Assembly: GCF_028583425.1 (NCBI RefSeq)
Contig: NC_072801.1
Span: forward strand, 24,634,001-24,698,000
Direction of reading: 5' to 3'
Length of the DNA stretch: 64,000 nucleotides
DNA from: Eublepharis macularius
Lineage: Eukaryota > Chordata > Lepidosauria > Squamata > Eublepharidae
The notes beneath the pieces were generated by a model. That model was not told the DNA's origin, ran no database searches, and saw only the letters and a list, made by a program, of their open reading frames with translations. The position numbers and the translations under genes were made by a program. Every line of letters starts with the position of its first letter. Position 1 is the stretch's first letter. This document shows positions 4,158 to 62,363 of the stretch, in pieces.

Positions 4158-5744
4158 GAAATCCACCCATGCCCGATTCGGTTTCGTTTTCTCAGCCATG
4201 CCGGACGCTCCTCTCGGCTGGTCCGGGAGGAAACGACCGGGCACCCTGACCGGGCGGCTGATCCGCAAGGATTAGCCCCCAGGACTCCCAGGGAGGGAGC
4301 CAGGGTCCGGGACGCGGCGGGAAGAACTCCCTGAAATCAATGCGGGGGGGGAATTGCCCGTTTGTCCCTATGGAGGCCGGCAGACGTGCGCGGCGCCTCA
4401 AGTGCCGCCGGGCAACGAGAAACGGCAAATAAAAGAAACAGGCGGAAGCCCGTAAACAAGCGAATCCCTTCTGTTCTACAAGCGTTTGTGAAGGAGAGGT
4501 TGATCTGAAGAAGACTCGTTCTTCCCCTTCGCTGAGTTCCAGAATTTTGTTGGCGCCCCCCCCCCCAAATGGCAGCAAAGAAGCAAAGTCCCGCTCTCGG
4601 TAAGTCAATCTCGGCTACCTTGAAGGGGGAGTCGCTCGAAGAGTTGGTGCGCAGGGCGGTGGTGGAAGCCATAAAACCCTTTGTTGACAAGCTGAACGAA
4701 ACTGATCAAAGGGTGGGCTTAATTGAAAGCGAAGTGAAAACCATTAAGGCAGCAGCGGGGGGGGGCAGAGAAGTCTGCTCTGGAAAGTGCGTCACTTGTG
4801 AAGGCTACAAAAAAGGAGCTGAAGCTGGTTGAGAACCAGCTGATCGGGCTACAGATGGAACGAACGCAGACAATTTTGCGTCTCCAAAATGTGAAAGAGG
4901 AGGAAAAAGAGGATCTGTGGGAGGTGGTCTCGGAACTATTGGCGATACCCGCGAGGACGACTAAAGAAGAGGTTAAAAGCGCCATTTTGGAGGTCCGTCG
5001 GGCTTCTTCAAAATATGCAACAAAGCGACAGTTGCCTCGTGAGATCATTATTGACTTTTCATTTAAAAAGATTCGGGACACCATCCTATATAACTCATAC
5101 AATGCGGATTTGGACTTTATGGGTTTGAAAGTCAAGATTTTGAAGGACGTTCCATTTCTAGTCCGGAAACGGCGTTTTAAATATAAAAAGTTTGCAGCTC
5201 TTCTGAGGGACCATGGAATAAAGTACAAATGGTTATTCCCGGAAGGAATATGGTTCAGATATAAAGATCAGGCCTATAAGATATTATCAGAAGATCAACT
5301 AAAGGATTTTGAGAATAAAAACCCAGAACTCTGCTGCACCGAGAACGAAGAAAAGGAGGAGCCGGAGGGGGGGGGAGGAGGAGGAGGAGAGCACCGCAAC
5401 AGCGGTTGCACAGAGAGAACTGCGTCCGGGACCTAGAAGGGGGAGGAAAGTTTAATCAGAATTTGAAACGTTTATTCTCTGTATGATTAACCACTCCATC
5501 ATTATCCTATGGAGCTATTTTTGTATTATGACAGTATGAAGGGAAAACATTGAAGTGTAGTGTTTAGTGTTTGTAGTTCATTCCCCCCCCCTTTTTTCTT
5601 TTTCTTTTTTTCTTTTTCCACCCCCCTTTGTCCCTTCCCTCTCCCCTTTCCTTGTGATAGTCTTGTGTAGTGCTGTGTAGTGTTTTGTAGTTATGAAAAA
5701 TAAAAAAAAAATTATAAAAAAAAAAAAGAAATCCACCCATGCCC
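4158..5744 (+). mobile_element. ORF1-only L1 retrotransposon (HAL1-like, 'half-L1') with 17-bp TSD
   Basis: The insertion (4175 to about 5727) is flanked by the 17-bp direct repeat gaaatccacccatgccc (4158-4174 and 5728-5744) and ends in an A-rich tail. It has a GC-rich 5' leader of about 390 bp, an L1 ORF1 region (4569-5436) and about 290 bp of 3' UTR. There is no trace of ORF2 (endonuclease/reverse transcriptase). Since the TSD abuts the 5' leader, the copy is not 5'-truncated: ORF2 was missing from the inserted molecule. Mammalian HAL1 elements have the same plan and are moved in trans by L1. The 3' UTR has a long pyrimidine tract (5581-5650). The alternative is a one-off internal deletion; only further copies would tell. 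Confidence 0.8.
4569..5436 (+). pseudogene. L1 ORF1 protein region (RNA-binding chaperone), in two frames
   Basis: A first frame (4569-4832, 87 aa) begins MAAKKQSPAL and runs into a helical stretch ending at KLNETDQRVGLIESEVKTI, which fits the ORF1p coiled coil. The second frame (4798-5436, 212 aa) continues the coiled coil, then carries an RRM-like block starting near 'TILRLQNVKEEEKEDLWEVV' and a C-terminal domain with 'REIIIDFSFKKIRDTIL' and 'FRYKDQAYKILSEDQL', in the order typical of L1 ORF1p. The protein would bind its own RNA as trimers. The shift between frames falls near the G-run at about 4756-4766, a common slippage site, so the copy is probably no longer coding full length. The C terminus is glycine- and glutamate-rich, from a GGA-type simple tract. 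Confidence 0.78.
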
Positions 5745-6990
5745 AAGACTGTGTTTTTATTGCATTTGCTGCCAGTGGCTTAGGTTCAGTGCAGGATTTC
5801 TGCCAATGGAAGATGGGAGAATGTTTACTGAATTCCCCCCACCCTCAGCTGCAGACCTCCAACTTCCTTCTCATACCGGTTCTTGGGAGTTCCCTGTCTC
5901 CCAGGAGCAATATTTTGGGAAACATTTTTGTTTGCACCAGGAAAGGGGGCTTATGAAAATCCCTTCCATCTACCAAAATTGTTTGGCAGATTCAAGCAAT
6001 TGCTGCCAAGGGTGACTACATGGTCACCTTTATTCCATAACTACCCTACTACTGAAGGTCATTTCCTGGTTTTGCTAGGTCAAGCGCATATGGTAACTAG
6101 GTTAGTATTTTCCCTAGTTTTAAGACAAGATGCTAGAGTCTCCCATCAGAAAGCCAAAGTGGTTCAGATTGTGCATAGATAATAAAAAGCACAAAAAAGA
6201 GTGTGTGGAGTGATTTGGGGGTCATAAATCTTGTTTTGTGCTCCACAGCTTTCCCACCCAGGTATTCAATTTCATTTCTGGCACTGCCAGCCACAAGTCT
6301 CCTCCTTGTGCCAGCCTGAAAGAACTGCTTTTTCATTAGTTTCCCTGGAAGTCATTTTATAGTTGTCTGTCCCCCTCTATACCTCGTAAATTCACTTTAT
6401 ATATCAAGGCTGAGACATGGGGTCAGAGGTCTTGGCCAGAAGCAATTACTGTAAAGAGCCAGCCGGTCACTCTTAAGCTACAAAGAGAATATTCTGGGCA
6501 AGAGAAACAGAGCTGAAGCACCCTTCCTCGGACTGATGGACGTCAAAGCATCTTTGTTAGAACTGAATTGTTAAGTTATGGGGGTGGGCAGGGGCTGTGC
6601 AAAGTTCCAGCACTGGACAGCGCAGCCTGCTGGTTGCTCAGAAAAATAATGGTATAAGCTTTGCCAACCAGATATCCCACATCTTGTCAGCAAATTTATC
6701 TTCTTGTATGTGTTTTTTAAAATATTTCTATCATTGTAAATGAACAGCCCCTAATTATACTGATTTTCTCACTACCTGGGGAAATGATATTTGAGCAAGG
6801 CCAAATGCTTCCGAGAGACCAATTGGTAAAGCATAATTCAATTTGGAGATTTGAGTAATGATTCTGCCGCTCGGAATAGGAGAGTTTTGAGCAATTACGC
6901 AGCGACCCTCTGATTCAGTTGTTTCCTCCCTCGCCTCCTGCTTCTGTGCTCTGGGACAGCAGCTAGGAAATGCAATTTGGAAAGCCCAAA
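5745..6990. other. No gene recognised; possible conserved non-coding block
   Basis: Repeat-poor intron sequence. About 6650-6960 is AT-rich with several TAAT/ATTA-like cores and no repeat signature, so it is a candidate conserved element (inference only). Confidence 0.4.
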
Positions 6991-7090
6991 CAATATTGGT
7001 GTTCGATGTATTGTCGAAGGCTTTCACGGCCGGAGAACAATGGTTGTTGTGGGTTTTCCGGGCTGTATTGCCGTGGTCTTGGCATTGTAG

Positions 7091-7138
7091 TTCCTGACGT
7101 TTCGCCAGCAGCTGTGGCTGGCATCTTCAGAGGTGTAG
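7091..7138 (-). ncRNA. Hammerhead-ribozyme-like motif, PLE left terminal repeat
   Basis: On the - strand the core CTGAAGA (7130 to 7124) is followed by a stem II of gccagc/gctggc and then GAAA (7103 to 7100) and CGTC. This fits the hammerhead core CUGANGA...GAAA, with a very short stem III. A 3-bp stem I (CCU/AGG) is visible. Hammerheads are established in Penelope-like elements. Activity is inference. Confidence 0.6.
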
Positions 7139-7201
7139 CACCAAAAGACAGAGATCTCTCAGTGTCACAGTGTGGAAAAGATGTAGGTCATTTGTATCTA
7201 C

Positions 7202-8017
7202 TCAGGAGGGGTGGGGTTGAGCTGAGTCATCCTGTAAGGGTTTCCCAGGGTGTGGAATGCTAATGGCGGGAGGCTTCACTGTATCCTGAGGAGGTTCTTT
7301 TGCATATGGATTGGTGCTTGATGTGCTAATCTTCTCTGCAGGGCTATTGTCGGGTGTGGAGTGTTTTGTTGGCCTGGTGTTTTTCAGAACTGGAGCCCAT
7401 GCTCTGTTCATTCTTAAGGTTTCTTCTTTCCTGTTGAAGTTTTGCTTATGCTTGTGAATTTCAATGGCTTCCCTGTTCAGTCTGACAAAGTAGTTGGAAG
7501 TGTTGTCCAGTATTTTGGTGTCCTGGAATAAGATACTGTGCCCTGTTTGAGTTAGGTTATGTTCAGCCACTGCTGATTTTTCAGGTTGTCCAAGTCTGCA
7601 GTGTCTTTCATGTTCTTTTATTCTTGTCTGGATGCTACGCTTTGTGGTCCCGATGTAAACTTGTCCACAGCTGCAGGGTATACGGTATACTCCTGCAGAG
7701 GTGAGGGGGTCTCTGCTGTCTTTTGCTGATCGTAGCATCTGTTGTATTTTTCGGGTGGGTCTGAATACTGCTTGAAGGTTATGCTTTTTCATAAGCTTTC
7801 CCATCTGATCAGTAATTCCTTTGATATATGGCAAAAACACTTTTCCTGTAGGCGACTGTTTTTCCTTGATTGTTTGATTCATCCTGGGTTTGATTGCTCT
7901 TCGGATTTCATTTCTGGAGTAGCCATTTGCCTGAAGTGCGTGGTTTAGATGATTAATTTCCTCATTGAGAAAGCGCGGCTCACATATCCGTCTTGCACGA
8001 TCCACTAATGTTTTCAT
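7202..8017 (-). CDS. PLE linker + GIY-YIG endonuclease, C-terminal fragment (left copy)
   Basis: A 271-aa open frame. The N-terminal ~105 residues (MKTLVDRARRICEPRFLNEE...) are the linker that joins reverse transcriptase to nuclease in Penelope proteins. Next comes a GIY-YIG nuclease core with 'GVYRIPCSCGQVYIG', then 'TRIKEHERH' with the conserved Arg, and 'KSAVAEH' with the conserved Glu, at about residues 108-170. A low-complexity tail rich in Pro, Ser and Thr follows. GIY-YIG nicks target DNA to prime reverse transcription. The reverse transcriptase part is missing, because the copy begins at the centre of the dimer. It is a retroelement fragment and not a host gene. Confidence 0.82.
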   Translation of the reverse strand: MKTLVDRARRICEPRFLNEEINHLNHALQANGYSRNEIRRAIKPRMNQTIKEKQSPTGKVFLPYIKGITDQMGKLMKKHNLQAVFRPTRKIQQMLRSAKDSRDPLTSAGVYRIPCSCGQVYIGTTKRSIQTRIKEHERHCRLGQPEKSAVAEHNLTQTGHSILFQDTKILDNTSNYFVRLNREAIEIHKHKQNFNRKEETLRMNRAWAPVLKNTRPTKHSTPDNSPAEKISTSSTNPYAKEPPQDTVKPPAISIPHPGKPLQDDSAQPHPS

Positions 8018-8083
8018 TATGCCTCTTTTCTGTCGGGGGTGGTGATTGGAGTTTTTGTGTAAGTACCGATCAGTGTGAGTTGG

Positions 8084-9015
8084 TTCCAGTAAAAGACACT
8101 ATTGCACTTATTAATCAGATTTTCTCAGAGGATGTAACAGCCTTATTCCACCATTGTCTGACAACCAGTTACTTCCAATGGGACAATGAATTCTATGAAC
8201 AGATGGATGGGGTGGCCATGGGGAGCCCACTCAGCCCAGTTATAGCAAACTTCTACATGGAACATTTTGAAAAAACAGCTCTAGAATCAGCACCCCACAA
8301 ACCCAGTGTATGGTTCCGGTTTGTGGATGATACATTCATCATTTGGAGCCATGGGGAGGAAGAATTGATGGGGTTTTTGAATCATCTCAACAACATCCAC
8401 CTGAACATACAATTCACAATGGAGAAAGAAAGAGAGGGAAAACTCCCATTCCTGGATACCTTGGTCATCCGCAAAGCAAACTTTCAGTTAGGTCACAAGG
8501 TCTACAGGAAACCAACTCACACTGATCGGTACCGTATACCCTGCAGCTGTGGACAAGTTTACATCGGGACCACAAAGCGTAGCATCCAGACAAGAATAAA
8601 AGAACATGAAAGACACTGCAGACTTGGACAACCTGAAAAATCAGCAGTGGCTGAACATAGCCTAACTCAAACGGGGCACAGTATCTTATTCCAGGACACC
8701 AAAATACTGGACAACACTTCCAACTACTTTGTCAGACTGAACAGGGAAGCCATTGAAATTCACAAGCATAAGCAAAACTTCAACAGGAAAGAAGAAACCT
8801 TAAGAATGAACAGAGCATGGGCTCCAGTTCTGAAAAACACCAGGCCAACAAAACACTCCACACCCGACAATAGCCCTGCAGAGAAGATTAGCACATCAAG
8901 CACCAATCCATATGCAAAAGAACCTCCTCAGGATACAGTGAAGCCTCCCGCCATTAGCATTCCACACCCTGGGAAACCCTTACAGGATGACTCAGCTCAA
9001 CCCCACCCCTCCTGA
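8084..9015 (+). CDS. PLE reverse transcriptase C-half fused in frame to GIY-YIG endonuclease (right copy)
   Basis: The real PLE part of a longer open frame; the bases before 8084 belong to the antisense of the left copy. Reverse transcriptase motifs are visible: 'GVAMGSPLSPVIANFYM' and the active-site box 'RFVDDTF', then 'KLPFLDTLVIR'. At 'KPTHTDRY' the frame jumps directly to 'RIPCSCGQVYIG', the start of the GIY-YIG core. The left copy has more than 100 linker residues between those same two points, so this copy has lost the linker through an in-frame deletion whose ends share 'tac' near 8530. The rest matches the left copy almost residue for residue, to the same C-terminal PHPS. Confidence 0.82.
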
Positions 9016-9081
9016 GTAGATACAAATGACCTACATCTTTTCCACACTGTGACACTGAGAGATCTCTGTTTTTTGGTGCTA

Positions 9082-9130
9082 CACCTCTGAAGATGCCAGC
9101 CACAGCTGCTGGCGAAACGTCAGGAACTAC
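9082..9130 (+). ncRNA. Hammerhead-ribozyme-like motif, PLE right terminal repeat
   Basis: The same motif in the other arm: CTGAAGA at 9087-9093, stem II gccagc/gctggc, GAAA at 9114-9117, then CGTC. It is identical to the left copy through the core. Confidence 0.6.
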
Positions 9131-9189
9131 AATGCCAAGACCACGGCAATACAGCCCGGAAAACCCACAACAACCAATATTGGTGTTGC

Positions 9190-20465: not shown

Positions 20466-23414
20466 CTAATAGCCACTGATGGACCTCTGCTCCATATATT
20501 TGTCCAGTCCCCTCTTGAAGCTGGCAATGCTTGTAGCTGCCACCACCTCCTGTGGCAACGAATTCCATGTGTTTATCACCCTTTGTGTAAAGTAGTATTT
20601 TCTTCTATCTGTTCTAACCCGACTGCTCAATAATTTCATAGAGTGCCCACGAGTTCTTGTATTGTGAGAAAGGGAGAAAAACACATCTTTCTCTACCTTC
20701 TCTAACCCGTGCATTATCTTGTAAACCTCTATCATGTCTCCCCTCAGTCGTCTTTTCTCCAGGCTAAAGAGCCCCAAGCGCCTCAATCTTTCCTCATAGG
20801 GAAAGTGTTCCAACCCTTTAATCATTTTAGTTGCCCTTCTCTGTACTTTTTCCAGTGCTATGATATCTTTTTTAAGGTGTGGCGACCAGAACTGTACACA
20901 GTACTCCAAATGAGGCCTCACCATCGATTTATACAGAGGCATTATGATACCGGCTGATTTGTTTTCAATCCCTTTCCTAATAACCCCTAGCATAGCATTA
21001 GCTTTTTTTATGGCAGTCGCACACTGTGCTGACGTTTTTAGTGAGTTATCTATCATGACTCCAAGATCTCTCTCTTGGTCAGTCTCCGCCAGTTCAGACC
21101 CCATCAACTTGTATTTATATTTTGGATTTTTGGTTCCAATGTGCATTACTTTGCACTTGGCTACATTGAACCTCATTTGCCACATGGATGCCCACTCTTC
21201 TAGCCTCGACAGATCCCTTTGGAGTGCCTCACAATCCTCTCTGGCTTTCACCACCCTGAACAATTTCGTGTCATCTGCAAATTTAGCCACTTCACTGCTT
21301 AATCCCAATTCCAAATCATTAATAAACAAGTTAAAAAGCATTGGACCCAATACCGACCCCTGTGGCACCCCACTGCTCACCACCCTCCACTGTGAGAAGT
21401 GCCCGTTTATACTCACTCTCTGTTTCCTATTAATTAGCCAGTTTTCGATCCACAAGAGGACTTGGCCCTTTATCCCATAGCTACTGAGCTTACTTAGGAG
21501 CCTTTGATGAGGAACTTTGTCAAAAGCTTTCTGGAAGTCAAGATAAACAATATCTATCGGGTCTCCCTTGTCCACTTGTTTGTTCACTCCCTCAAAGAAC
21601 TCTAACAGATTGGTGAGACAAGATCTTCCCTTACAGAACCCATGCTGAGTTTTCCTCATCAGCTTTTGGTCATCAATGTGCCCACTAATTTTATTTTTGA
21701 TAATAGTTTCCACCAACTTACCCGGTATTGACGTCAGGCTGACTGGCCTGTAATTTCCCGGATCTCCCCTGGAACCTTTTTTAAAGATGGGGACAACATT
21801 AGCTACCTTCCAGTCCTCAGGAACAGATGCAGAGTTTAATGACAGATTACATATTTTTGTGAGGAGATCTACAAGTTCACACTTGAGTTCTTTCAGAACT
21901 CTTGGATGTATGCCATCTGGGCCCGGTGATTTATCAGTTTTTAAATTATCTAGCAGTCGCATAACCTCCTCTCTCGTCACCTCAATGTGACTCAGGTCTT
22001 TCAAAACCCCTCCCAAAGTCAGTGCTTCCGGAGTGGGCATGCACTTCTTATCTTCCACAGTGAAGACAGAAGCAAAGAACGCATTCAGCTTCTCGGCCAT
22101 TTCCCTATCACCCTTTAGTAATCCTTTTACGCCTTGGTCATCCAAGGGCCCCACTGCCTCCCTAGCTGGTTTCCTACTTCTAATATATTTAAAGAATTGT
22201 TTATTGTTTTTCTTTATGTTCTTTGCAATATGCTCCTCATATTCCCTTTTTGCCTGTCTGATCACAGACTTGCACTTTTTTTGCCACAGCTTATGCTCCT
22301 TTTTATCAACCTCACTCCGACTAGTTTTCCACTGCCTAAAAGAATCCTTTTTACCTTTTACAGCTTCTATTACATTGCTTGTTAACCATGCTGGCCTTTT
22401 CCTAAACCTATTTGTGCCTTTCCTAACCAGCGGTATATATTTAATTTGAGCTTCCAGGATTGTAGTTTTAAATAGACTCCAAGATTCCCCAAGTGTTTTG
22501 ACCTTTTTTACTTTCCCTTTCAGTTTCTTCTTCACGTACCCCCTCATCTCAGAAAAGTTACCCCTTTTGAAGTTAAACATGGCTGTGTTGGTCTTATTTG
22601 GCAATTTCCTATTTATACATATGTTGTACTCAATAACATTATGGTCACTGTTCCCAAGTGGTGCAATCACATTTACATCTCTCACCAGGTCTTCAGCATT
22701 ACTGAGGACCAAATCCAGGATCACCTCTCCCCTAGTAGGTTCTGTAACCATCTGTTCCATAGCACAGTCATTGAGACAGTCTAGAAACTCACTTTCTCTC
22801 CCCCGATTCGAACACCCATTGGCCCAGTCAATGTGTGGGTAGTTAAAATCACCCATTACAACACAGTTTTTTTGTTTAGCAGCCATCTTTAATCCTGTCA
22901 TCATTTTATAATCCTCCTCTATTTTCTGATCTGGAGGGCGATAACAAACTCCCACAGTTAAGTTTCCATTTGGGCCCGTAATTTCAACCCATAGCATTTC
23001 CAGAAGCGAATCTAATTCAGTTACCTTCTCAATCTTACTGGAATGTATACCTTCTCTGACATATAGAGCCACCCCACCACCAACCCTTCCCTCCCTATCC
23101 TTCCGATATAATTTATATCCAGGAATCACCGTGTCCCACTGATTTTCCTCATCCCACCAAGTTTCTGATATGCCCACAATGTCTATGGATTCGCCCAACA
23201 CTAAACATTCCAGCTCCCCAATTTTACCTCGGACACTTCTAGCATTTGTATATAAACACCTGTAACTTCCCCGGCACACTTTGCCTCGAGACGTAGTTAG
23301 GTCATCTGCACTGTTTGTCTCCATCTCAGTTGACAACTCTAATCTATCTCCCTGTAGAAGTGTTATACCTAGCCCTTCATCTCTCTGAGATGAACCATCC
23401 TGAACCAGAGACAC
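20466..23414 (-). CDS. CR1 ORF2 protein (APE endonuclease + reverse transcriptase)
   Basis: 982 aa, normal for CR1 ORF2. The APE-type endonuclease occupies about residues 50-270: 'YTNARSVRGK', 'GISETWWDE', 'GGGVALYVREG', 'VMGDFNYPHIDW' and 'GNSDHNVIEY' carry its metal-binding and catalytic residues. The reverse transcriptase follows: 'DKSPGPDGIHPRVLKE', 'YLDFQKAFDKVPHQRL', 'SGVPQGSVLGPMLFNLF' and the active-site box 'FADDTKLF'. The C-terminal ~200 residues (MRPHLEYCVQFWSPHLKKD, LRRLGLFSLEKRRLRGDMIE) are the typical CR1 thumb/tail region. The enzyme nicks DNA and copies element RNA at the nick. No stop or frameshift is seen. Confidence 0.9.
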   Translation of the reverse strand: MSLVQDGSSQRDEGLGITLLQGDRLELSTEMETNSADDLTTSRGKVCRGSYRCLYTNARSVRGKIGELECLVLGESIDIVGISETWWDEENQWDTVIPGYKLYRKDREGRVGGGVALYVREGIHSSKIEKVTELDSLLEMLWVEITGPNGNLTVGVCYRPPDQKIEEDYKMMTGLKMAAKQKNCVVMGDFNYPHIDWANGCSNRGRESEFLDCLNDCAMEQMVTEPTRGEVILDLVLSNAEDLVRDVNVIAPLGNSDHNVIEYNICINRKLPNKTNTAMFNFKRGNFSEMRGYVKKKLKGKVKKVKTLGESWSLFKTTILEAQIKYIPLVRKGTNRFRKRPAWLTSNVIEAVKGKKDSFRQWKTSRSEVDKKEHKLWQKKCKSVIRQAKREYEEHIAKNIKKNNKQFFKYIRSRKPAREAVGPLDDQGVKGLLKGDREMAEKLNAFFASVFTVEDKKCMPTPEALTLGGVLKDLSHIEVTREEVMRLLDNLKTDKSPGPDGIHPRVLKELKCELVDLLTKICNLSLNSASVPEDWKVANVVPIFKKGSRGDPGNYRPVSLTSIPGKLVETIIKNKISGHIDDQKLMRKTQHGFCKGRSCLTNLLEFFEGVNKQVDKGDPIDIVYLDFQKAFDKVPHQRLLSKLSSYGIKGQVLLWIENWLINRKQRVSINGHFSQWRVVSSGVPQGSVLGPMLFNLFINDLELGLSSEVAKFADDTKLFRVVKAREDCEALQRDLSRLEEWASMWQMRFNVAKCKVMHIGTKNPKYKYKLMGSELAETDQERDLGVMIDNSLKTSAQCATAIKKANAMLGVIRKGIENKSAGIIMPLYKSMVRPHLEYCVQFWSPHLKKDIIALEKVQRRATKMIKGLEHFPYEERLRRLGLFSLEKRRLRGDMIEVYKIMHGLEKVEKDVFFSLSHNTRTRGHSMKLLSSRVRTDRRKYYFTQRVINTWNSLPQEVVAATSIASFKRGLDKYMEQRSISGY

Positions 23415-23443
23415 TTTATCTCTTGTCGGCTTTCCCCTAGCAT

Positions 23444-24352
23444 TTAGTTTAAAAACTGCTCTGCCACCTTTTTGATTTTAAGTGCCAGCAGCCGGGTTCC
23501 TTCTCGGGACAAGTGGAGACCGTCTCTCTTGTACAGCTCCCGCTTGTCCCAAAAAGAATCCCAGTGCCTAACAAACTTGAACCCTTCCTCCCTACACCAT
23601 CGTCTCATCCACGCATTGAGACTCCTGATCTGCGTTTGTCTCTCTGGCCCTGCGCGTGGAACAGGTAGCACTTCTGAGAAGGCTACCTTGGAGGTCCTGG
23701 CCTTGAGTCTCCTGCCTAACAGCCTAAATTTTTGTTCCAAGACCTCACGACTGCATTTCCCAACATCGTTGGTTCCAACATGGACCACGACCGCTGACTC
23801 TTCCCCAGCACTATCTACCAGCCTATCTATAACACGCGTAATGTCCGCTACCTTCGCACCAGGCAGGCAAGTCACCATACGGTCAGAACGCGGTTGTGCC
23901 ACCCAGCTATCTACTTGTCTAAGGATCGAATCACCAACTACCAAGAGCCTCCCTCCCGCCCCACCCAGGGATGGTTCCTTGATGCGAAAGGAAACCTGCT
24001 CACCAACTGAAGAAGAGGTCCCTTCTGAGGGCATGTTCCCCTTATCCTCAGTACGGTGCCCTGATTCCACAAGATCCTCATTCTCCTTGACAACAAGAAC
24101 GCTGCCATTTTTAGAGTGGGACACATCTATCCTGTCCCTGAGAATCTTGTCCTCGTGCCTATCTAACTGTCTCCGCTTCTCCAGGTCAGCCACCTTGGCC
24201 TCAAGGGTACGTACTCGTTCCCTGAGAACCAGGAGCTCCTTGCAGCGAGCACACATCCAGGACTTCTGACCAGAAGGCAGATAGTCATACATGTGACACT
24301 CAGTGCAATACACTGGAAAGCCCCCAACCCCCTGCTGGCATTCTGACTTCAT
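23444..24352 (-). CDS. CR1 ORF1 protein (zinc finger, coiled coil, SGNH esterase domain)
   Basis: 302 aa. The N terminus has a CxxC...CxxC cluster (C16/C19 'YCTECH' and C34/C37 'MCARC') like the PHD-type finger of CR1 ORF1. Residues about 40-75 (LLVLRERVRTLEAKVADLEK) form a coiled coil. From about 130 comes an SGNH-hydrolase fold: 'LLVVGDSILR' (block I, catalytic Ser), 'VVVHVGTNDVG' (block III, Asn), and 'DGLHLSREGTRLLA' near the C terminus (block V, Asp and His). Esterase domains are established in ORF1 of CR1/L2-clade LINEs; their role is thought to be in RNP or membrane association. All three catalytic blocks are present, so the domain looks intact. It is element-encoded, not a host esterase. 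Confidence 0.88.
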   Translation of the reverse strand: MKSECQQGVGGFPVYCTECHMYDYLPSGQKSWMCARCKELLVLRERVRTLEAKVADLEKRRQLDRHEDKILRDRIDVSHSKNGSVLVVKENEDLVESGHRTEDKGNMPSEGTSSSVGEQVSFRIKEPSLGGAGGRLLVVGDSILRQVDSWVAQPRSDRMVTCLPGAKVADITRVIDRLVDSAGEESAVVVHVGTNDVGKCSREVLEQKFRLLGRRLKARTSKVAFSEVLPVPRAGPERQTQIRSLNAWMRRWCREEGFKFVRHWDSFWDKRELYKRDGLHLSREGTRLLALKIKKVAEQFLN

Positions 24353-25046
24353 TATTCTGTTTTAGGAACAACACACTAAGAGGAAAGAAAACGGCTATGA
24401 TCCCCCGGCTAAGAGCCACAGGCCAAGAGCCCTTTAGCTCTTGCCCTTCGGCTCGCGCCAAAGGCTCGCGCCCCTGCCCAGCAGTTGCCTTTTCAATGCA
24501 AAAGGTCACTTCCTGCTAAGCACAGGAGGTGAGCACAAAGGGGGTGTGTGGCTTGTACTCCAGCAACCCCCAGCAGCCTTACAAACACACTCACCCTCAA
24601 ACACAATCAAGCCCAAACACACTTAGCCTCAAAACTACACTCAAATCAACACAAAACTACACACAAAAAGCCCCAAAGCTAGAGAGGACCACCCTTAGCT
24701 TCTCAGCTTAACCCACCACAGCCAAGAAGGCAAAAAGCCCTTACCTCCTCTAGCAGCTGCAGACCATGTGCTCCTGAGCCCAGGTGACTCTGCTCTGCCC
24801 TGCCCCTGCCAAAGGGATTCAGGACATTTAGTGCAAGAGATACTATAGGATATGGTAGCAGAACATTTAAAAAATAAACATAAAGCCAGCACAAAGATGA
24901 AATCTTTCTGAAATGAAGCATAACTAATTTACATGGCATGTTTAGCAATGAGAAAACTCCCTAGCAGGCATGTATCTATATCAACAGACAGTATCCAACA
25001 GAGTAGCATATAGTCCCTGACTGTCCCTACCAATGCATCTCTCTGA

Positions 25047-27468: not shown

Positions 27469-27561
27469 TAACAGTGAAATCTAAGCAGAGTTAGGCCAGT
27501 CTAAGCCCATTGAAATCAATGGGCTTAGACTGGAGTAACTCTTCTTAGGATTTCACTGTTA
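27469..27561. mobile_element. 93-bp palindromic MITE-like repeat
   Basis: The two halves are nearly perfect reverse complements around a centre at 27514-27515. The inner 17-bp arms (27497-27513 and 27516-27532) are exact, and the outer ends taacagtgaaat/atttcactgtta also match. It folds into a single hairpin. The sequence resembles a palindromic repeat I believe is common in reptile genomes (recollection, not searched). Confidence 0.75.
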
Positions 27562-36843: not shown

Positions 36844-36889
36844 TGCAGTTAAACAGTTGACTCAGGTGATCAGTAGAGATGTGCATTTC

Positions 36890-37022
36890 GGCTTTCTGAA
36901 AGCCGAAAGAAAGCCGAAACAAAAGTGTTTCGGCTTCTTTCAGGTTAGCCGAAACGTTTCAGGCTAAGCCGAAACGTTTCAGCTAGCCAAAAGAAAAAAA
37001 GCCGAAATGTTTCGGCTTTAGG
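36890..37022. repeat. Subterminal gccgaaa/ttcggc array, left end of foldback
   Basis: About eight copies of gccgaaa or its complement in mixed orientation within 130 bp. The right end (39965-40085) has a similar but differently arranged array. Confidence 0.75.
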
Positions 37023-37169
37023 CTTTTTCAATGGGAAAATGCCTCCGGCGTCTTCCCGGACGTCTGGGGGAGGCATTTTCCCACCGAATCAGCCCAAAAT
37101 TGGTGGGGACCTTCCTCTAACCCCTCTCTACAAACCCCCCAAGTTTCAGACCGATTGGACTTTGGGGGG

Positions 37170-37600
37170 CCTCAGGGGCCCTTCTCCCACCCCTCCTCCC
37201 ACCCCCCACCAAGGCTCAGCCTGCTCCCACTTGGGGGGGCCATTTCATGGCCTCCCCAAGTAGGTGCTCTAATCTCATTCTCTACCACTGACAGCTGGGG
37301 GAGGCTTGTCTTGCCAGGGGTGGCATTTTGCATGCAAAATGCCCCCCAACCCTCTGGGGCCCTTCTTCCACCCCCCACCAAGGCTCAGACTGCTCCCACT
37401 TGGGGGGGGCATTTCATGGCCTCCCCAAGTAGGTGCTCTCATCTCTACCACTGACAGCTGGGGGAGGCTTGTCTTGCCAGGAGTGGGGCCCTCTGGGGCC
37501 CTTCTCCCACCCTTCCTCCCACCCCCCACCAAGGCTCAGACTGCTCCCACTTGGGGGGGGGGCTATTTCATGGCCTCCCCAAGTAGGTCCTCTCAGCCCC
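37170..37600. repeat. Three GC-rich tandem units, left arm of foldback
   Basis: Units of about 145-170 bp built from 'caccaaggctcag', 'catttcatggcctccccaag', 'tgacagctgggggaggcttg' and 'ttttgcatgcaaaatgcc'. The mirror set lies at 39210-39690 on the other strand. The right arm also carries an extra module at about 39690-39795 not seen at the left. Confidence 0.72.
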
Positions 37601-38089
37601 TAAAGTCCACCCCTTACAGCCCCACACAAACCCAATTCCCCCCCAGCTGCCACACACAGACCCAAATCCCCACATTAGCCCCTCACAGACCCAAATCCAC
37701 CCCCAGCAGCCCCACACCCATAACCCCAGGAACAGGCTGGCAAAGGCCAGCCCTCTCCCTTTGTTCCCTATGCTGGAAACTTCTAAACTCTCTTTCCCTG
37801 GGCAATTCTGCACAGCCCAGGGGTGCCACAATGGTGGGCACACTTCTGAGTGCCAGCTGGTCCCTGTGAAAGAGCACCTGAACCACAGACACCCTCCCTC
37901 AAATTCCCCCACCACCTACAGTGATGGCTGGCCAGCCAGCCCCATTGTTCCCTATGATGGGAACCAACTGCACAACAAAGAATAAAACAAGAACAACACA
38001 AAATAAAGTTTTTAAAAAATTATTTTCTCCCTTCCAAAGTACAAGTAGGCAAAGCATAATGACACATTACACCAGCAGTCCCCCCCCCA

Positions 38090-38700
38090 CAGAAAAATAA
38101 CACAACTCACTTAACATCAGAGAATCACAAAGCACGATTCCTGTCAAAAACACTTTATTTCTTGAACAGCTTTAGGTTACACAACAGGGGGGGAACACCA
38201 AAGGGCATGGAAGCAGTATCTTACACAAAAATAACACAACTCACTTCACATTAAAGAATCACCCCAAAAAATTGCTGTCAAAAGCACTTTATTTCTGTAA
38301 CTGCTTTAGGTCACACAGTAGGAAGGCACAACAGAGCAGGAAAGTAGTGTACTACACAAAAATAACACAACTCACTTCACATCAGAGAATCACACAAACA
38401 CAATTGCTGTCAAAAACGGTGAAGTGGGTTGTATTATTTTTTGTAGTACATTGCTATCATGCCCTGTTGTGCCCTCCTACTGTGTAACCTAAAGCTGTTC
38501 AAGAAATAAAGTGTTTTTGCCAGGAATTGTGTTTTTGTGATTCTCTGATGTTAAGTGAGTTGTGTTATTTTTGTGTAAGATAGTGCTGCCATGCCCTTTG
38601 GTGTTCCCCCCTGCTGTGTAACCTAAAGCTGTTCAAGAAATAAAGTGTTTTTGACAGGAATCGTGCTTTGTGATTCTCTGATGTTAAGTGAGTTGTGTTA
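38090..38700. repeat. Central ~130-bp units with AATAAA, pointing toward both arms
   Basis: Units begin near 38100, 38230 and 38367 on the left and recur inverted at about 38455-38700. Each has 'gttcaagaaataaagtgttt' or its complement and 'gattctctgatgttaagtga'. The orientation switches near 38417. Confidence 0.72.
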
Positions 38701-40105
38701 TTTTTCTGTGTGGGGGACTGCTGGTGTAATGTGTCATAATGCTTTGCCTACTTGTATTTTGGAAGGGAGAAAATAATTTTTTAAAAACTTTATTTTGTGT
38801 TGTTCTTGTTTTATTCTTTGTTGTGCAGTTGGTTCCCATCATAGGGAACAATGGGGCTGGCTGGCCAGCCATCTCTGTAGGTGGTGGGGGAATTTGAGGG
38901 AGGGTGTCTGTGGTTCAGGTGCTCTTTCACAGGGACCAGCTGGCACTCAGAAGTGTGCCCACCATTGTGGCACCCCTGGGCTGTGCAGAATTGCCCAGGG
39001 AAAGAGAGTTTAGAAGTTCCCAGCATAGGGAACAAAGGGAGAGGGCTGGCCTTTGCCAGCCTGTTCCTGGGGTTATGGGTGTGGGGCTGCTGGGGGTGGA
39101 TTTGGGTCTGTGAGGGGCTAATGTGGGGATTTGGGTCTGTGTGTGGCAGCTGGGGGGGAATTGGGTTTGTGTGGGGCTGTAAGGGGTGGACTTTAGGGGC
39201 TGAGAGGACCTACTTGGGGAGGCCATGAAATAGCCCCCCCCAAGTGGGAGCAGTCTGAGCCTTGGTGGGGGGTGGGAAGAAGGGTGGGAGAAGGGCCCCA
39301 GAGGGTTGGGGGGCATTTTGCATGCAAATTGCCACCCCTGGCAAGACAAGCCTCCCCCAGCTGTCAGTGGTAGAGATTAGAGCACCTACTTGGGGAGGCC
39401 ATGAAATGGCCCCCCCTAAGTGGGAGCAGGCTGAGCCTTGGTGGGGGTGGGAGAAGGGCCCCAGAGGGTTGGGGGGCATTTTGCATGCAAAATGCCACCC
39501 CTGGCAAAACAAGCCTCCCCCAGCTGTCAGTGGTAGAGATGAGAGCAGAGCACCTACTTGGGGAGGCCATGAAATGCCCCCCCCCCAAGTGGGAGCAGGC
39601 TGAGCCTTGGTGGGGGGTGGGAGGAAGGGTGGGAGAAGGGCCCCTGAGGGTAAGGGGGCATTTTGCATGCAAAATGCCACCCCTGGCAAAGGAAGCCTGC
39701 TTCTTCATTTTTCCCCGTAGGAAATAATGAAGAAGATGAGCAGCAGCATGCTAACAATATGCTGCTCCTTCGCTTTCTTATGGGAGGATAGGGGGACCTG
39801 CTTTGGGGGGCCATAACATGGCCCCCCAAAGTCCAATCGGTCTGAAACTTGGGGGGTTTGTAGAGAGGGGTTAGAGGAAGGTCCCCACCAATTTTGGGCT
39901 GATTCGGTGGGAAAATGCCTCCCCCAGACGTCCGGGAAGACGCCGGAGGCATTTTCCCATTGAAAAAGCCGAAAGCCGAAAGTAAGCCGAAAGCCGAAAC
40001 GGCTGGCCGTTTCGGCTTTCGGCTTATACGAAAGAGAATCCTCTTTCGGCTTTCTGCTTTCGGCTTTAGCCGAAAAGTTTTGGCTTGCACACCCCTAGTG
40101 ATCAG

Positions 40106-48570: not shown

Positions 48571-48795
48571 AGACAGCCCAGCCAATGCTGATTAAGACTG
48601 CTAGCAACAGTAACTGCTGAGTGCTTTGTAGGAAATTTTCTTGGTTTACATTGGCACACAGGATGCCAAACCAGTCTTCCCAGTGCCCTGTGCGACCCGT
48701 ATGTGTGCCATAGAGTATGGCCCAGAATACTCTGCAAATATACAACCTGGGGTGCTCATGGATACAAAGAATGAATACTCAACAGAGAAATAGTA

Positions 48796-48934
48796 TAAAG
48801 TCCAGCACCTTTAAGACTAACCAACTTTATTGGTTAGTCTCTCTTTATCAGAGAGCGGTGGTTCTCGAAAGCTTATGCCTCAATAAAGTTGGTTAGTCTT
48901 AAAAGTACTACTGGACTTTTTACTATTTTGCAGC
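48796..48934. repeat. Short inverted-dimer repeat with hammerhead-like centre
   Basis: 48796-48837 is the near reverse complement of 48889-48934 ('aataaagttggttagtctta'). The centre has 'gagagcggtggttctcgaaa' (48853-48872), a stem II plus GAAA as in hammerheads, but the upstream CUGANGA core is degraded. Confidence 0.5.
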
Positions 48935-55727: not shown

Positions 55728-56751
55728 TAGCTTTCTGTGTATGGATTTCTGCAGCCCTTCCCCCACTTCTGAGCTGTGTGGGGAGACCTGGGTTCATACT
55801 CCCACTCTGTCATAAGCCCCCCCACCTCCGCCATTGTCCCTTTAAGCGAAGACTGTCTTTCAGCCTAACCCATCATTCTGAGTCTGTGCGTTTTCCTGTG
55901 GAGAAAAGTTTTCCTTATGGTGGCACAGGTTCTGGTGGCTTTCTGTTTGGGTTACACACTCAACATGGCGCTGTTTGTTAAATGACCTTGGGAACGACAG
56001 GTGAGTAAGAATTGGTCAGAGGGTCAGACCCACTATCACCCTCAAGAGTGGAGTTTTTTAAACAACTGCTCAGACTACCAGTTGGTTTCTGGGCCTGATC
56101 TTTAAAATACTAAGCCTCCTGGTACCACAGTATTTATAATGCAACTATCTTCAGAGCCCCTCCCACTGTCCTTTGCAGTGGGTGGATACGTGAAGCAGGG
56201 CGTTCCAAGTGGCGACCCCACCACTGTGTGCACAGTTCCATTCTCCTGGCGTGCAGCCATCAGGACTTGAAATCTCTCTTCCAAGAGGGTATTTGAGAAA
56301 AACTGGTTTTCACCTTTAATGGGTATCTTTTGACTGTTGTTTTCTTTCTTCTGGACTCTGTTGGTCTTCTTGGATACTGGTTCTCATTTTGATTTTATTT
56401 TTAACAACATGGATGGAAATGTTAGTTTTAAAAGAAAATAGAATAGTCATACAGGGCACATAAGCTCATGGGAAGGGGGAACGAAATAAATGATGATGTG
56501 ATGGGCAAGAAAGAAATCAGCAGAGCAGAGAGTCATATGGAGAGAGACTTCTTGGCAAGTTTCATCTGGGTGAAAGGAGGTCGGGAAGGCAGAGGAGACA
56601 GTGGTGGCTAAAGCGATAAACAAGGCTATTGTGAGATTATATTGTATGAGTAAGATCTGGCTCCAATAGCACCTTAAAGAGCAACTAGATTTCTTAAGAT
56701 GAGTAGCCATGATTGTCTGTCTGTAGCAGTAGAAAAGAGTAAGGGACAAGT
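55728..56751. other. No gene recognised
   Basis: Nothing recognised, except that 56640-56750 has phrases shared with the neighbouring short repeats ('ggctccaatagcaccttaaa'). Confidence 0.4.
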
Positions 56752-56876
56752 ACCACATATAAGACTAACAAAATGTGTGGTAGGGTATGAGCTTTTGTGA
56801 GTCGCAGCTCACTGAAAAAGTAAACTGTGATTCACAAAAGCTCATACCCTACCACAAATTTTGTTAGTCTTATAGA
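56752..56876. repeat. Inverted repeat, ~50-bp arms, of the hammerhead-bearing family
   Basis: 56761-56813 ('agactaacaaaatgtgtggt' to 'gcagctcact') is the near reverse complement of 56824-56876 ('acaaaagctcataccctacc' to 'gttagtctta'). It is arranged as an inverted dimer, like 48796. Confidence 0.62.
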
Positions 56877-56924
56877 TGCTCCTGGAACTTTGCTCTTTTC
56901 TAGATTTCTAAAGTATGAGTTTTC

Positions 56925-59391: not shown

Positions 59392-61782
59392 TCAGGACTT
59401 GTGCTGGGCGGACACCCCCTTCCAGTAGTCTAAGATGTCATGAAGATCCTCGTCTTTGGCAAACTGGACCTTTTTGCGCAGGGCGTGACCGGCAGCCATG
59501 TACTCTTCCTCATCTTTGTGCCGCTTCCGGTTCAGTTTGAAGCGCTCCCAGATGCTGTGGGACGGTTTGCACGTGTACTCTGGGCTGGAGGTGTAGCTCA
59601 GGTTGTGGTATTGAGGCGAAAGTTGAGAATAGGCCAAGTCTCTAGGGCGAGGCCTGGTCAAAGGTTCCAAGATGGAGGGCTTGCGCCCCCCCATGCTGTC
59701 ATGCTGCTCCCCTTGGTGGGACCCTGGGTAAGAGTGCCGGTGCTCGCTATACTGCCGGATCTTCTCGGCCTCAGCCCGCAGGATAGCAGCAGCCGGCGTC
59801 ACAGTGAGGATGGTGTCTGTGGTTGGAGATGTCTTCTCGATATATTTGGCTTCTGATTTGTGGCCGGAGCCTTCTGAGCGGAAGGATCTGGGGCTTCGTA
59901 TGGAACCACTGGAAGAAGTGCTGGAACGCTTTGGGGGGGCCTCCATGCTGTGGTGCCTCTGCAGTGGGTGGTTGTAGCTCTCTTTATAGACCGGGGCCAG
60001 GAAGCCATGTTTGCCTGGGATCTGTTCTGATAAAAGCACCAGTTGAGGCTCAGCTGTGGACACCGCTCCTGATTTCACCCCCTGGAATGAGGTGGACTCT
60101 GATTTCAAGGCATCGATACAGTTGTTGATTATTTGGTTCACCTTGTCCACTTCCTTGGTGATAGTGGAGATCTCTGCCACTGAGCTCTGGCTGTCGGGCG
60201 CCATTGGCAGCTCGCATTCCCTCCTTTCGGGCTGCTCCCCTGTGCGCACTTCCATGTAGTTACCCTTTGTGGTCTTGGGGGTCTCACTACTGTCGATCAG
60301 TTTGTATTGCTCGACCTCTCCCACAGAAGGAAGGTAAGGGATACGGGTCACAGTCTCACCACCTAACATCTGGCCTTGTGACAGTTGAGAGATGCTGGTG
60401 GTCTCCATCTCAGGCCCATACTTGAGCTCGATGATGGTCTTCTTCATGTTGACTGCGGCCTTCTTGTGCTTTTCCTCCTGCTGACGTTTCTTCCGGAGGC
60501 AGTAGTACACCACCCCTAGGACAATCACCATGCCAAACAAACAGCCCAAGATCGTCATGATGTAGTGAGTGGCCGTGGAAGAAGTGGGAATCGGCTCTTC
60601 CCTGTTTTGTTTGTTGAGGTTGATGGTGAGGCAAGTATAGTTATACCTGGAGACTCGGTTGGAAGACATCACACAGTAAGTGTAGTCTTCATTTGCCACT
60701 AGGTTCGTCAGCTCAATGTCTTCCTTCTTCTTTAGCAACTTGGCGAGGATGTTGTACCGCCCATTCTCGAACTGCGCCAAGGTGTACATCTTGCTGTAGG
60801 GCACTGGGATTTGCACGCTCAGTGTGGCTGAGTTGTGGGTCACGTGCTTCACTTTCATGGTGGGGTACAAACCCGGATCAATCACGGGGGTGTGCAGTGA
60901 GGCCTGTGGAGTGGTACCGTCTCCAGAGAAGCACTCTTCCTCGGGACATGGACTCTCAGGAGGAGCTGTCGTCACCGTGTACTTGGGTGGGATGAAATGA
61001 GGAGGCATGGTATATGGGCCACCTGTGCAGAGGGAAGAGAGCATGCCCAGGGCGTTACGGTAACCACTCCGACCTTGGCCTAAAAGGTAGTAGCCGGAAT
61101 AGTCCGGTGGGGAGTCACACTGCATGCGGTCGTAGGTGCGCGTCATGTTGGTGAAGCCTTCTAGCCACTGAAGGAAGCCCAGGAGCTCACATGAGCAGTA
61201 GAAAGGGTTGCTGTAGAGTTCACAGACTGTGAGTTTGTTCAGGCCCCTGAATGTGTTGCTGTCTAGCCTCTGGATCCTGTTCACAGACAAGTCAATGTTC
61301 ATTATGTTGGGGCACTCCCCGAAGGCATTGGGGGTGACTGTCTCAATGAGGTTAGCCTGGAGGTAAAGGTACTCTAACTTTCCCAGGCCACGGAGGATTC
61401 CCTCCGTCAGATTCCTCAGGCGGTTGTAGCCAAGCTGCAGCACCTGCAGGTTATATTGTCCCGAGAAGGCACCATCCTCAATGTAGGAGATCTCGTTCTT
61501 GGTCAGGTTGAGGTATGTGAGGTTACTGAAGCGGCTGAGGGAAGAGAATTGCACGCTTTTGATCTTGTTGTCATTCAACCGCAAGTCCAAAATCGTGCTG
61601 TTGATTTGCTGAGGGATGGACTCATACGGCGGCTGGTTCTGGCTGCAGATTGCTAGCCACACGAAGCCCTTTTCACCCTCAATCAGCCAGCAGTCTGCCT
61701 GCACCTCGCCCACATACAGGAGAGAGACAGCTGCTACGCATGCGCACAGTGCTGATGTCACAGCCCATTGATGGCCTGCCAT
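59392..61782 (-). CDS. ELFN1: ELFN1, extracellular LRR and fibronectin type III domain protein (complete, single exon)
   Basis: 796 aa. ELFN1 is a postsynaptic adhesion protein of certain interneurons that binds presynaptic group III metabotropic glutamate receptors in trans; it is also a protein phosphatase 1 regulatory subunit. Order: signal peptide 1-29 (cleavage after VQA); N-terminal cap with C31 and C46; leucine-rich repeats about 61-190; LRR C-terminal cap 191-252 with 'NPFYCSCELLGFLQWL'; fibronectin III about 308-390; transmembrane helix about 406-428 in 'HYIMTILGCLFGMVIVLG'; cytoplasmic tail to the end. N-glycosylation sequons include N61, N87, N92, N124, N212 and N381. The PP1-docking RVxF-type motif is KVQF (771-774), followed by the family C terminus 'DILDYWKGVSAQHKS'. 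The ending SAQHKS and the LRR text fit ELFN1 rather than ELFN2. Human ELFN1 is about 830 aa; the difference lies in the shorter proline-rich stretches. ATG at 61782 opens the signal peptide. The frame is intact. Confidence 0.96.
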   Translation of the reverse strand: MAGHQWAVTSALCACVAAVSLLYVGEVQADCWLIEGEKGFVWLAICSQNQPPYESIPQQINSTILDLRLNDNKIKSVQFSSLSRFSNLTYLNLTKNEISYIEDGAFSGQYNLQVLQLGYNRLRNLTEGILRGLGKLEYLYLQANLIETVTPNAFGECPNIMNIDLSVNRIQRLDSNTFRGLNKLTVCELYSNPFYCSCELLGFLQWLEGFTNMTRTYDRMQCDSPPDYSGYYLLGQGRSGYRNALGMLSSLCTGGPYTMPPHFIPPKYTVTTAPPESPCPEEECFSGDGTTPQASLHTPVIDPGLYPTMKVKHVTHNSATLSVQIPVPYSKMYTLAQFENGRYNILAKLLKKKEDIELTNLVANEDYTYCVMSSNRVSRYNYTCLTINLNKQNREEPIPTSSTATHYIMTILGCLFGMVIVLGVVYYCLRKKRQQEEKHKKAAVNMKKTIIELKYGPEMETTSISQLSQGQMLGGETVTRIPYLPSVGEVEQYKLIDSSETPKTTKGNYMEVRTGEQPERRECELPMAPDSQSSVAEISTITKEVDKVNQIINNCIDALKSESTSFQGVKSGAVSTAEPQLVLLSEQIPGKHGFLAPVYKESYNHPLQRHHSMEAPPKRSSTSSSGSIRSPRSFRSEGSGHKSEAKYIEKTSPTTDTILTVTPAAAILRAEAEKIRQYSEHRHSYPGSHQGEQHDSMGGRKPSILEPLTRPRPRDLAYSQLSPQYHNLSYTSSPEYTCKPSHSIWERFKLNRKRHKDEEEYMAAGHALRKKVQFAKDEDLHDILDYWKGVSAQHKS

Positions 61783-61821
61783 TTGGAAGGGCCACGCAGA
61801 GACAGGGAGATCCCTTATCTG
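61783..61821 (-). promoter_or_regulatory. ELFN1: ELFN1 coding-exon 5' end with tandem (NAGNAG) splice acceptor
   Basis: On the - strand the sequence just upstream of the ATG reads cccctttcctcccttccag then cag: a pyrimidine tract with two adjacent AGs (complement of + strand CT at 61822-61823 and 61819-61820). The coding exon would start about 36-39 nt before the ATG, leaving more 5' UTR in an upstream exon outside the window. Confidence 0.6.
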
Positions 61822-61823
61822 CT

Positions 61824-62363
61824 GGAAGGGAGGAAAGGGGTGGTTTGTTTTACGGCACAGCCCTACCTTAGGCTAACATTTCTGGGGAAGCTTTGTCATT
61901 CTATCCTTTCTCTTCATGGTCGCAAACCATGAAGAGTCACCCAAGGGGGAAAAGGAAAGGAAAACTTCTTGCTTCAAAGTCACCCTTCCTGGTGCAAAAG
62001 CTTTAGCCAAGGTTCTCCTGGGAAGCTGGTTCTTCTACCATTGTCTTGTGTTTTCTCTGAAGTCACGCAGGAGAAAGATCGATCTTTGGAGAATACAAGG
62101 TCTGGCTCAGGAATGGGCTGAGCTTTCCCATTCAGTGTTGTCTGTTCTGGTCTTCTTTTTGCTTCCTGCTTCCACTTCGGTGCTGGGCTCCTTCTCCATA
62201 TCTGTGGTTCTCTGCAAATTTCTTCTCATTGGTTCACTTGGTTCTCCTGACAACACAAAAATAGAGACAAAAAGCGATACTTAATGGCTTTTGTTGAAAC
62301 AGAAAACTTACTTGTTTAGTGTACTTTTGGTTATTTCCAGGTGGTCTAAAGTCACAATTGGCT
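61824..62363 (-). other. Probable ELFN1 5' intron, proximal part
   Basis: No repeat or exon recognised. Confidence 0.45.

Follow-up and report, generated by a model that had tools for sequence, protein, structure and literature searches.

The question raised by this locus is whether a 3.2-kb, largely palindromic sequence in the genome of Eublepharis macularius is a genuine mobile element and, if so, to which group it belongs and what moves it. The sequence lies in a 64,000-nucleotide stretch of contig NC_072801.1 (positions 24,634,001 to 24,698,000, forward strand; hereafter, the window), and all element coordinates are given as window positions. An initial annotation, made from the letters alone, had described it as a giant foldback element with hAT-type ends. 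Both the foldback architecture and the lack of autonomy were supported by our analysis, and the element is very probably a non-autonomous foldback transposon of the hAT superfamily, mobilised in trans by a BED-domain hAT transposase, as judged from sequence comparisons.

The element (GC content 0.52) is bordered by the exact 8-bp target-site duplication (TSD) that had been annotated, and its two 12-base tips are alike at 10 positions. Long inverted repeats of tandem modules surround a short centre, the structure by which foldback elements are recognised, and the modules have periods of about 163, 134 and 29-30 bp, in agreement with the modular arms described initially. The local alignment of one arm against the other scored 2381 (100 Markov resamplings: mean 27.6, maximum 37). 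Gap-free arm identity was 99.4% (37010-37169), 96.6% (37170-37554) and 99.1% (37555-38088), and toward the centre 97.7% (38089-38222) and 87.5% (38223-38353), with a longest perfect run of 222 bp; across 37010-38222 the arms differ by 22 substitutions, plus indels, the largest of 172 bp. The annotated symmetry (arms of about 1.5 kb, reverse-complementary around 38417) was confirmed for the arms, which are mostly 97-99% identical, but the axis lies near 38400 and the right arm is longer by 172 bp. This block was probably lost from the left arm of the window copy, because many other copies carry about 170 extra bases there in their left-arm match (for example C7:91935120-91935417, where the match resumes at 91935588; C1, C3 and C7 denote contigs of the assembly). 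Similarly, the wording "almost fully palindromic" suits the interior but not the ends, where 136 bp on the left and 116 bp on the right lie outside the near-perfect palindrome. As annotated, no protein domain was found: none of ten tested open frames of the element matched a Pfam family above the cut-off (one match below it, SRR1, E 0.27), and the window copy is therefore regarded as non-autonomous.

Fold-back chimeras are known to produce inverted repeats, and an assembly or library artefact (a fold-back read) at the window locus was considered as an explanation. The window's own assembly (2,236,738,225 bases, 72 contigs) was searched with each arm: the best 40 of 2,968 candidates were scored for the left arm, equal to 40 loci including the window, and the best 40 of 2,203 for the right arm, equal to 40 loci. 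The copy sample used below comprises the window and the 39 other loci of the left-arm search, chosen by similarity to the window's left arm. Both arm cores were present in inverted orientation in 26 of these 40 copies (one core in 14), 20 of them with an exact TSD; the initial annotation had proposed that arms occurring only as separate units would speak for a chance or assembly product, and such was not the pattern in this genome. In addition, exact end patterns were counted genome-wide: the two left-end patterns L1 and L2 occurred 352 and 2,651 times and the right-end pattern R 2,247 times, with 0 matches for the reversed controls. Since thousands of exact ends are present in the same genome and the reversed controls gave none, the window palindrome is a genuine transposon and not an assembly artefact. 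The arms at two other loci, L026 (99.75% identical) and L050 (98.6%), include host flank and could individually be artefacts. The window arms, however, carry the substitutions and indels given above, the exact TSD links two different flanks, and both arm cores recur in 25 further copies at other loci; an artefactual window copy is refuted unless every locus is artefactual, and this explanation retains almost no likelihood. No second copy of the family was found in the 64-kb window.

The ends and TSDs of the 40 scored copies were then compared. A left (L) end was paired with a right (R) end in 34; two had been scored as L/L, and the remaining four yielded no end pair. At the predicted tips, 30/40 copies had an exact 8-bp TSD, namely 20 two-armed copies (2,856-3,845 bp) and ten one-armed copies (1,782-2,961 bp). 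Outside this count, though kept in the denominator, were L010, L035, L039 and L047 (no end pair found), L011 and L013 (tip decayed or missing, no TSD), L024 (L/L), L021 and L025 (TSD with one mismatch) and L026, which was L/L at first reading and for which the true R-end and an exact TSD were identified later. A shifted 8-bp match at L025 was discarded in favour of the one-mismatch TSD at the proper tips. In the 30 exact TSDs, T occupied position 2 in 26 and A position 7 in 23 (both in 20, either in 29), which is the pattern nTnnnnAn. The terminal inverted repeats (TIRs) of hAT elements start with YARNG; the L tip was TAGGGATGTGCA in 28 of the 30 copies and the R tip TAGGGGTGTGCA in 28. The annotated hAT-type ends were thereby borne out across copies.

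The candidate transposase was identified by a search for the hAT dimerisation domain, in which the best 150 of 4,145 candidates were scored, all above the cut-off. Two open frames lie in the correct orientation inside an exact 23-base L2-end: 918 codons at C1:2751906 (6.1 kb inside the end at C1:2757986) and 920 codons at C1:20954523 (locus L054; 6.7 kb inside the end of a copy that extends from C1:20948028 onward). They represent two of the seven listed hAT dimerisation domains on C1 below 88.64 Mb. The L054 frame contains zf-BED and Dimer_Tnp_hAT domains and matches Hermes in PDB (E 2e-7, 69 residues). A third transposase locus on C3 has an L1-type end at 42814466 and is 96.9% identical to L054 over 5,061 bp, with its frame broken into several pieces; over 147-169 bp, the L-end at this locus matches foldback copies at 86-92% identity. 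On the 3' side of the gene, the C3 copy carries stretches of 160-210 bp that are 72-86% similar to the arm core and oriented as the right arm, and the same stretches occur at L054 (71-85%). The partner transposase that the initial annotation suggested searching for is thus probably the BED+hAT gene, which lies 6-7 kb inside a left end like those of the foldback family at these three loci; the R-end was the part of this search that gave no match. At two further transposase loci, L055 and L056, no matching ends were found within the stretches examined.

Three side observations concern the C3 locus. The C3 copy (L057 and L058 joined, reverse complement) carries a tandem array of ~171-bp units 5' of the gene (1339-2735). 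When L059 is added, 427 bp from the 3' side of this copy are seen to be duplicated in inverted orientation (6615-7041 and 8008-8434). Finally, one 8-bp word, CTCTTAAC, adjoins the ends of both the transposase-bearing C3 copy (L058) and the foldback copy L052, which lie on different contigs; given the target preference, this is probably a coincidence.

A foldback of another superfamily with a TSD near 8 bp (P/Galileo-like or Mutator-like) was weighed against the hAT assignment. Foldbacks have been described from flies, plants, a sea urchin and a midge, with Mutator the apparent superfamily of most of them (PMC4079207). Tetris of Drosophila virilis is reported to have TIRs of up to 1,735 bp, built of a flanking domain and tandem repeats of ~220 bp, to lack a conserved open reading frame, and to share its ends with the miniature inverted-repeat transposable element (MITE) DAIBAM (PMC4079207). 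Long TIRs with tandem repeats and the absence of a conserved frame make Tetris similar to the window element; it differs in being a fly element, with a TSD of 8-10 bp, assigned to Mutator by its authors and reported in three structurally complete copies (PMC4079207). Galileo, of the P superfamily in Drosophila, is described with TIRs above 1 kb that contain internal tandem repeats and multiple transposase binding sites, and that have grown by tandem expansion and recruitment of internal sequence (PMC3688188, PMC4168063). Galileo has a THAP transposase and the TSD consensus GTATTAC (7-8 bp), versus BED+hAT and nTnnnnAn here. These elements are similar in architecture, and the ninth base beside the TSD agrees on the right side in 15/30 copies and on the left in 12/30, where chance would give 7-8. 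Nevertheless, a ninth duplicated base, the Mutator criterion, is far from general, the TSDs follow nTnnnnAn, two loci have the exact L2-end upstream of an open frame with a hAT domain (in one case also zf-BED), and the transposase with the family's left end is zf-BED + Dimer_Tnp_hAT rather than THAP. Another superfamily is very improbable, and the hAT assignment was retained.

For the outer ends, an alignment of the 136 bp (left) with the 116 bp (right) gave 76 matches, 12 mismatches and 76 gap bases. Between the 34 copies with an end pair, L-ends were on average 93.4% identical (minimum 67%) and R-ends 92.7% (minimum 70%), versus 47.4% (maximum 56%) for L against R inside one copy. For the 149 bp inward of the ends, by contrast, identity between the two arms within a copy was 95.4% (minimum 78% among 28 copies). 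The palindrome ends short of the tips, and the two end types are each conserved between copies. The motif GCCGAAA/TTTCGGC occurs seven times in each end, which accounts for 14 of the 19 sites in the window (Markov null for the 252 bp of ends: mean 0.22 sites, maximum 3 in 500).

To this arrangement, the published behaviour of Hermes, a housefly hAT element, is relevant. Hermes prefers 8-bp targets of the form nTnnnnAn, its subterminal repeats are placed asymmetrically at the two ends, LE/LE constructs (two left ends) had little activity and RE/RE (two right ends) none, and end asymmetry is deemed an important requirement by the authors (PMC10368747). The asymmetric ends of the foldback family fit this need. 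The family shares with Hermes the 8-bp nTnnnnAn TSD, short imperfect TIRs, differing subterminal arrays and a BED domain; Hermes, unlike the window element, encodes its own transposase, and it is not described as palindromic in PMC10368747.

End pairing was surveyed for the first 100 listed L2-ends (C1 up to 88.64 Mb), ignoring arms. A convergent exact R-end was present within 12 kb of 58/100 (median 3,483 bp; 57/58 at 2.5-4.5 kb), and four of nine L1-ends on the same stretch were also paired. Like-end pairs amounted to one L2/L2 and one R/R, and the divergent control gave one. When four R-end loci were examined, L052 (3,470 bp) and L053 (3,044 bp) were full palindromes with exact TSDs, L050 was the R/R case and L051 was partial; we infer that most L2/R pairs of 2.5-4.5 kb are palindromes. 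L026 and L050 look like inverted duplications arisen in place rather than transposed symmetric elements, because reverse-complementary words adjoin their like ends; both cases are thus in keeping with the Hermes requirement. At L050, a convergent L2-end (C1:86383521) lies ~370 bp past the inner R-end and 3,703 bp from the outer R-end, and the layout is probably the same as at L026.

Two side observations were made at other loci. At L034 (position 4741 onward), a more diverged L-end with an outer arm block (85-92%) is separated by ~680 bp from a young copy and is perhaps an older relative of the family. At L019, the host flanks on the two sides of the foldback copy (685-1080 and 5006-5401) are inverted repeats of each other (99.7%) over 396 bp or more, up to the edge of the examined stretch.

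To follow the history of the arms, 39 L and 22 R arm cores, 61 in all, were compared over 540 columns, with one further core unlabelled; the tree used 529 columns. Allele frequencies differ strongly between L- and R-arms at six sites (window 37589, 37601, 37614, 37706, 37708 and 38058), and 12/21 two-armed copies had the typical alleles at sites one to three and six (left GCC..A, right CTT..T). These shared L- and R-arm alleles point to a palindrome already present in the ancestor of the sampled copies. A palindrome formed anew in each copy, by recurrent foldback synthesis, would find parallels in L026 and L050, recent inverted duplications that include host flank. Set against it are the alleles common to copies and the finding that just 4/44 arms had their partner as a (tied) nearest neighbour; recurrent formation is accordingly improbable. 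In the tree, the L/R label required 10 changes versus 18.4 in shuffles (0/500 as low), with most forks weakly supported.

Within these lineages, sequence appears to have been exchanged between arms. The distances between copies were 0.0183 (L-R), 0.0154 (L-L) and 0.0142 (R-R), and the within-copy L-R distance was 0.0142 (22 copies including L024). In the 21 copies that have one arm of each type, the within-copy distance was 0.0133 versus 0.01725 with partners permuted (0/20,000 as low). This argues for exchange, because one old palindrome without it would give equal L-R distances within and between copies. The similarity could instead be a by-product of sampling, as copies were chosen by similarity to one arm and the tree has 529 columns only; yet without exchange the two distances should be equal whatever the subfamilies, and they were not. 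We consider the sampling explanation unlikely, and the arms are best described as old, separate lineages with patchy exchange, as far as arm-core comparison indicates. The window copy itself carries right-arm alleles at the first three sites in its left arm.

The following mechanism is proposed. The subterminal GCCGAAA arrays are predicted transposase binding sites, and the transposase would require one L-end and one R-end, which would keep the palindrome from spreading over the tips. The right arm may represent the former 3' non-coding side of the autonomous element; the left arm would then be this side copied in inverted orientation and placed beside a retained left end of ~140-168 bp; this assignment was made because the arm-core-like stretches lie 3' of the transposase gene. 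The inversion could have occurred through template switching in gap repair after excision, before the sampled copies spread, with the palindrome then copied as a unit and patches later swapped between arms by gene conversion or crossover. Transcribed copies would yield long hairpin RNA. More tentatively, and at a little below even likelihood, this would be a vertebrate hAT lineage whose most successful form (thousands of copies) is a 3-4 kb palindrome, with arms held in partial concert by exchange and tips kept asymmetric by the transposase, and whose hairpin nature drives strand switches in gap repair that capture or invert host DNA and seed inverted duplications.

Several observations weigh against this interpretation. 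The colinear similarity of the outer ends exceeded a motif-preserving null in all but 5/500 shuffles, and the L- and R-ends may be of remote common ancestry. On C1 up to 88.64 Mb, 42/100 L2-ends and 5/9 L1-ends had no exact R partner; the partners may be mutated, missing or distant. L024 (L/L, no TSD) and the L2/L2 pair at C1:85653794/85657021 are without explanation, and the arm sample carries the selection by left-arm similarity mentioned above. Only the left ends and ~350 bp of 3' sequence connect the transposase with the family: arm similarity at L054 stops at its position 5062, with no tip in the following 1.5 kb, and in the C3 copy no R-end was found before another foldback element begins.

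Ordinary hAT MITEs and Ds-type deletion derivatives are non-autonomous and have ends in common with autonomous hAT elements, but most are short or have simply lost internal sequence, unlike palindromes of 3-4 kb. Among the titles and abstract openings listed for open-access papers on hAT foldbacks, squamate or vertebrate foldbacks and long inverted repeats (in two cases 20 of 164 and 15 of 47 matches), no vertebrate hAT foldback appeared, which does not prove absence. A foldback of hAT type, in a vertebrate and at high copy number, may be new, and may have a name in Dfam or Repbase. The family offers a natural test of the asymmetric-ends rule of Hermes and visible template-switch scars; its many palindromes would allow gene conversion between arms to be measured, and it is a possible source of long double-stranded RNA.

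Such putative scars were found in rearranged copies. Nine single-arm copies (L015, L016, L019, L022, L028, L033, L040, L042 and L043) have large deletions with nine distinct breakpoint pairs, eight of which begin within 1,747-1,925 of the 3,616-bp reference copy L014. In L031, ~93 bp of the adjoining host flank (an exact match for the 54 bp beside the TSD) is repeated in direct orientation between the ends of the element, along with the TSD and R-end. Between the L-end and the true R-end at L026 lies an inverted duplicate of 2,368 bp (99.75%), made up of the leftmost 660 bp of the element and 1,708 bp of host flank; the outer TSD ATACTGAA is intact on both sides. These duplicated-flank structures could result from gap repair after excision with strand switching. 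For defective Galileo copies, gap repair with slippage and template switching is proposed by the authors (PMC4168063).

The very long RNA duplex anticipated in the initial annotation is energetically sound in silico: the full element is predicted to fold with a minimum free energy of -3011 kcal/mol (plus strand) or -3016 kcal/mol (minus strand) and uninterrupted helices of up to 222 and 367 bp, compared with -1115 to -1243 kcal/mol for five resamplings. Rfam matches on the element were all sub-threshold; the best (mir-722, 32.6 bits versus a cut-off of 81) fell on the self-complementary ends and was taken as chance. DNA pattern searches of viral contigs (two patterns) and of phages, plasmids and genome contigs (one pattern) gave 0 matches, as expected for a vertebrate repeat.

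Features of the window copy, with positions in the window
Feature	Position	Strand	Basis
Whole element, 3,224 bp, very probably a non-autonomous hAT foldback, L-end to R-end	36874..40097		TIR, TSD and inverted arms; 39 related copies
Left TSD GTGATCAG	36866..36873		Identical to 40098-40105
Right TSD GTGATCAG	40098..40105		Identical to 36866-36873
L-end: 12-bp tip TAGAGATGTGCA and subterminal GCCGAAA/TTTCGGC array, 7 sites	36874..37009	+	L-type end kept in other copies
Left arm	37010..38379	+	Inverted repeat with right arm
Outer arm block, 99.4% to 39822-39981	37010..37169	+	Arm alignment
~163-bp modules, left arm	37170..37554	+	Repeat and arm alignment
Left arm core, 99.1% to 38710-39241; contains 29-bp array 37617-37717	37555..38088	+	Arm alignment
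Putative inter-arm conversion patch: 3 sites with right-arm-typical allele in left arm	37589..37614	+	Arm-allele comparison
Left 134-bp tandem modules, 2.5 copies	38089..38417	+	Tandem-repeat analysis
Central spacer/loop, ~40 nt, flanked by CACTTCA and TGAAGTG	38380..38419		Read from sequence
Right arm	38420..39981	-	Inverted repeat with left arm
Right 134-bp tandem modules, 2.2 copies	38422..38705	-	Tandem-repeat analysis
Right arm core	38710..39241	-	Arm alignment
163-bp tandem modules, 2.4 copies	39282..39698	-	Tandem-repeat analysis
172 bp in right arm only (window copy)	39650..39821	-	Arm comparison
R-end: tip TAGGGGTGTGCA and distinct GCCGAAA/TTTCGGC array, 7 sites	39982..40097	-	R-type end kept in other copies

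Among eight window frames tested, the only host gene recognised was an ELFN1/ELFN2-like coding frame (59392-61872, minus strand, 825 aa) with leucine-rich repeats and Fn3_ELFN, ~19 kb from the element. A 647-bp inverted repeat (99.5%) surrounds a reverse-transcriptase fragment at 7041-9176, probably tail-to-tail copies of a Penelope-like retroelement; its C-terminal motif, without a Pfam match, resembles a GIY-YIG endonuclease. At 20466-24361 (minus strand), a long open long interspersed nuclear element, probably young and of CR1 type, has a reverse-transcriptase and endonuclease frame of 1,003 aa and a 305-aa frame with a GDSL-lipase/esterase domain. A 565-aa frame at 397-2094 resembles a DIRS-type element, with a tyrosine-recombinase match below the cut-off. 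Finally, short MITE-like palindromes are present at 56730-56902 (81% self-complementary), 27469-27561 (89%) and 48788-48928 (72%).

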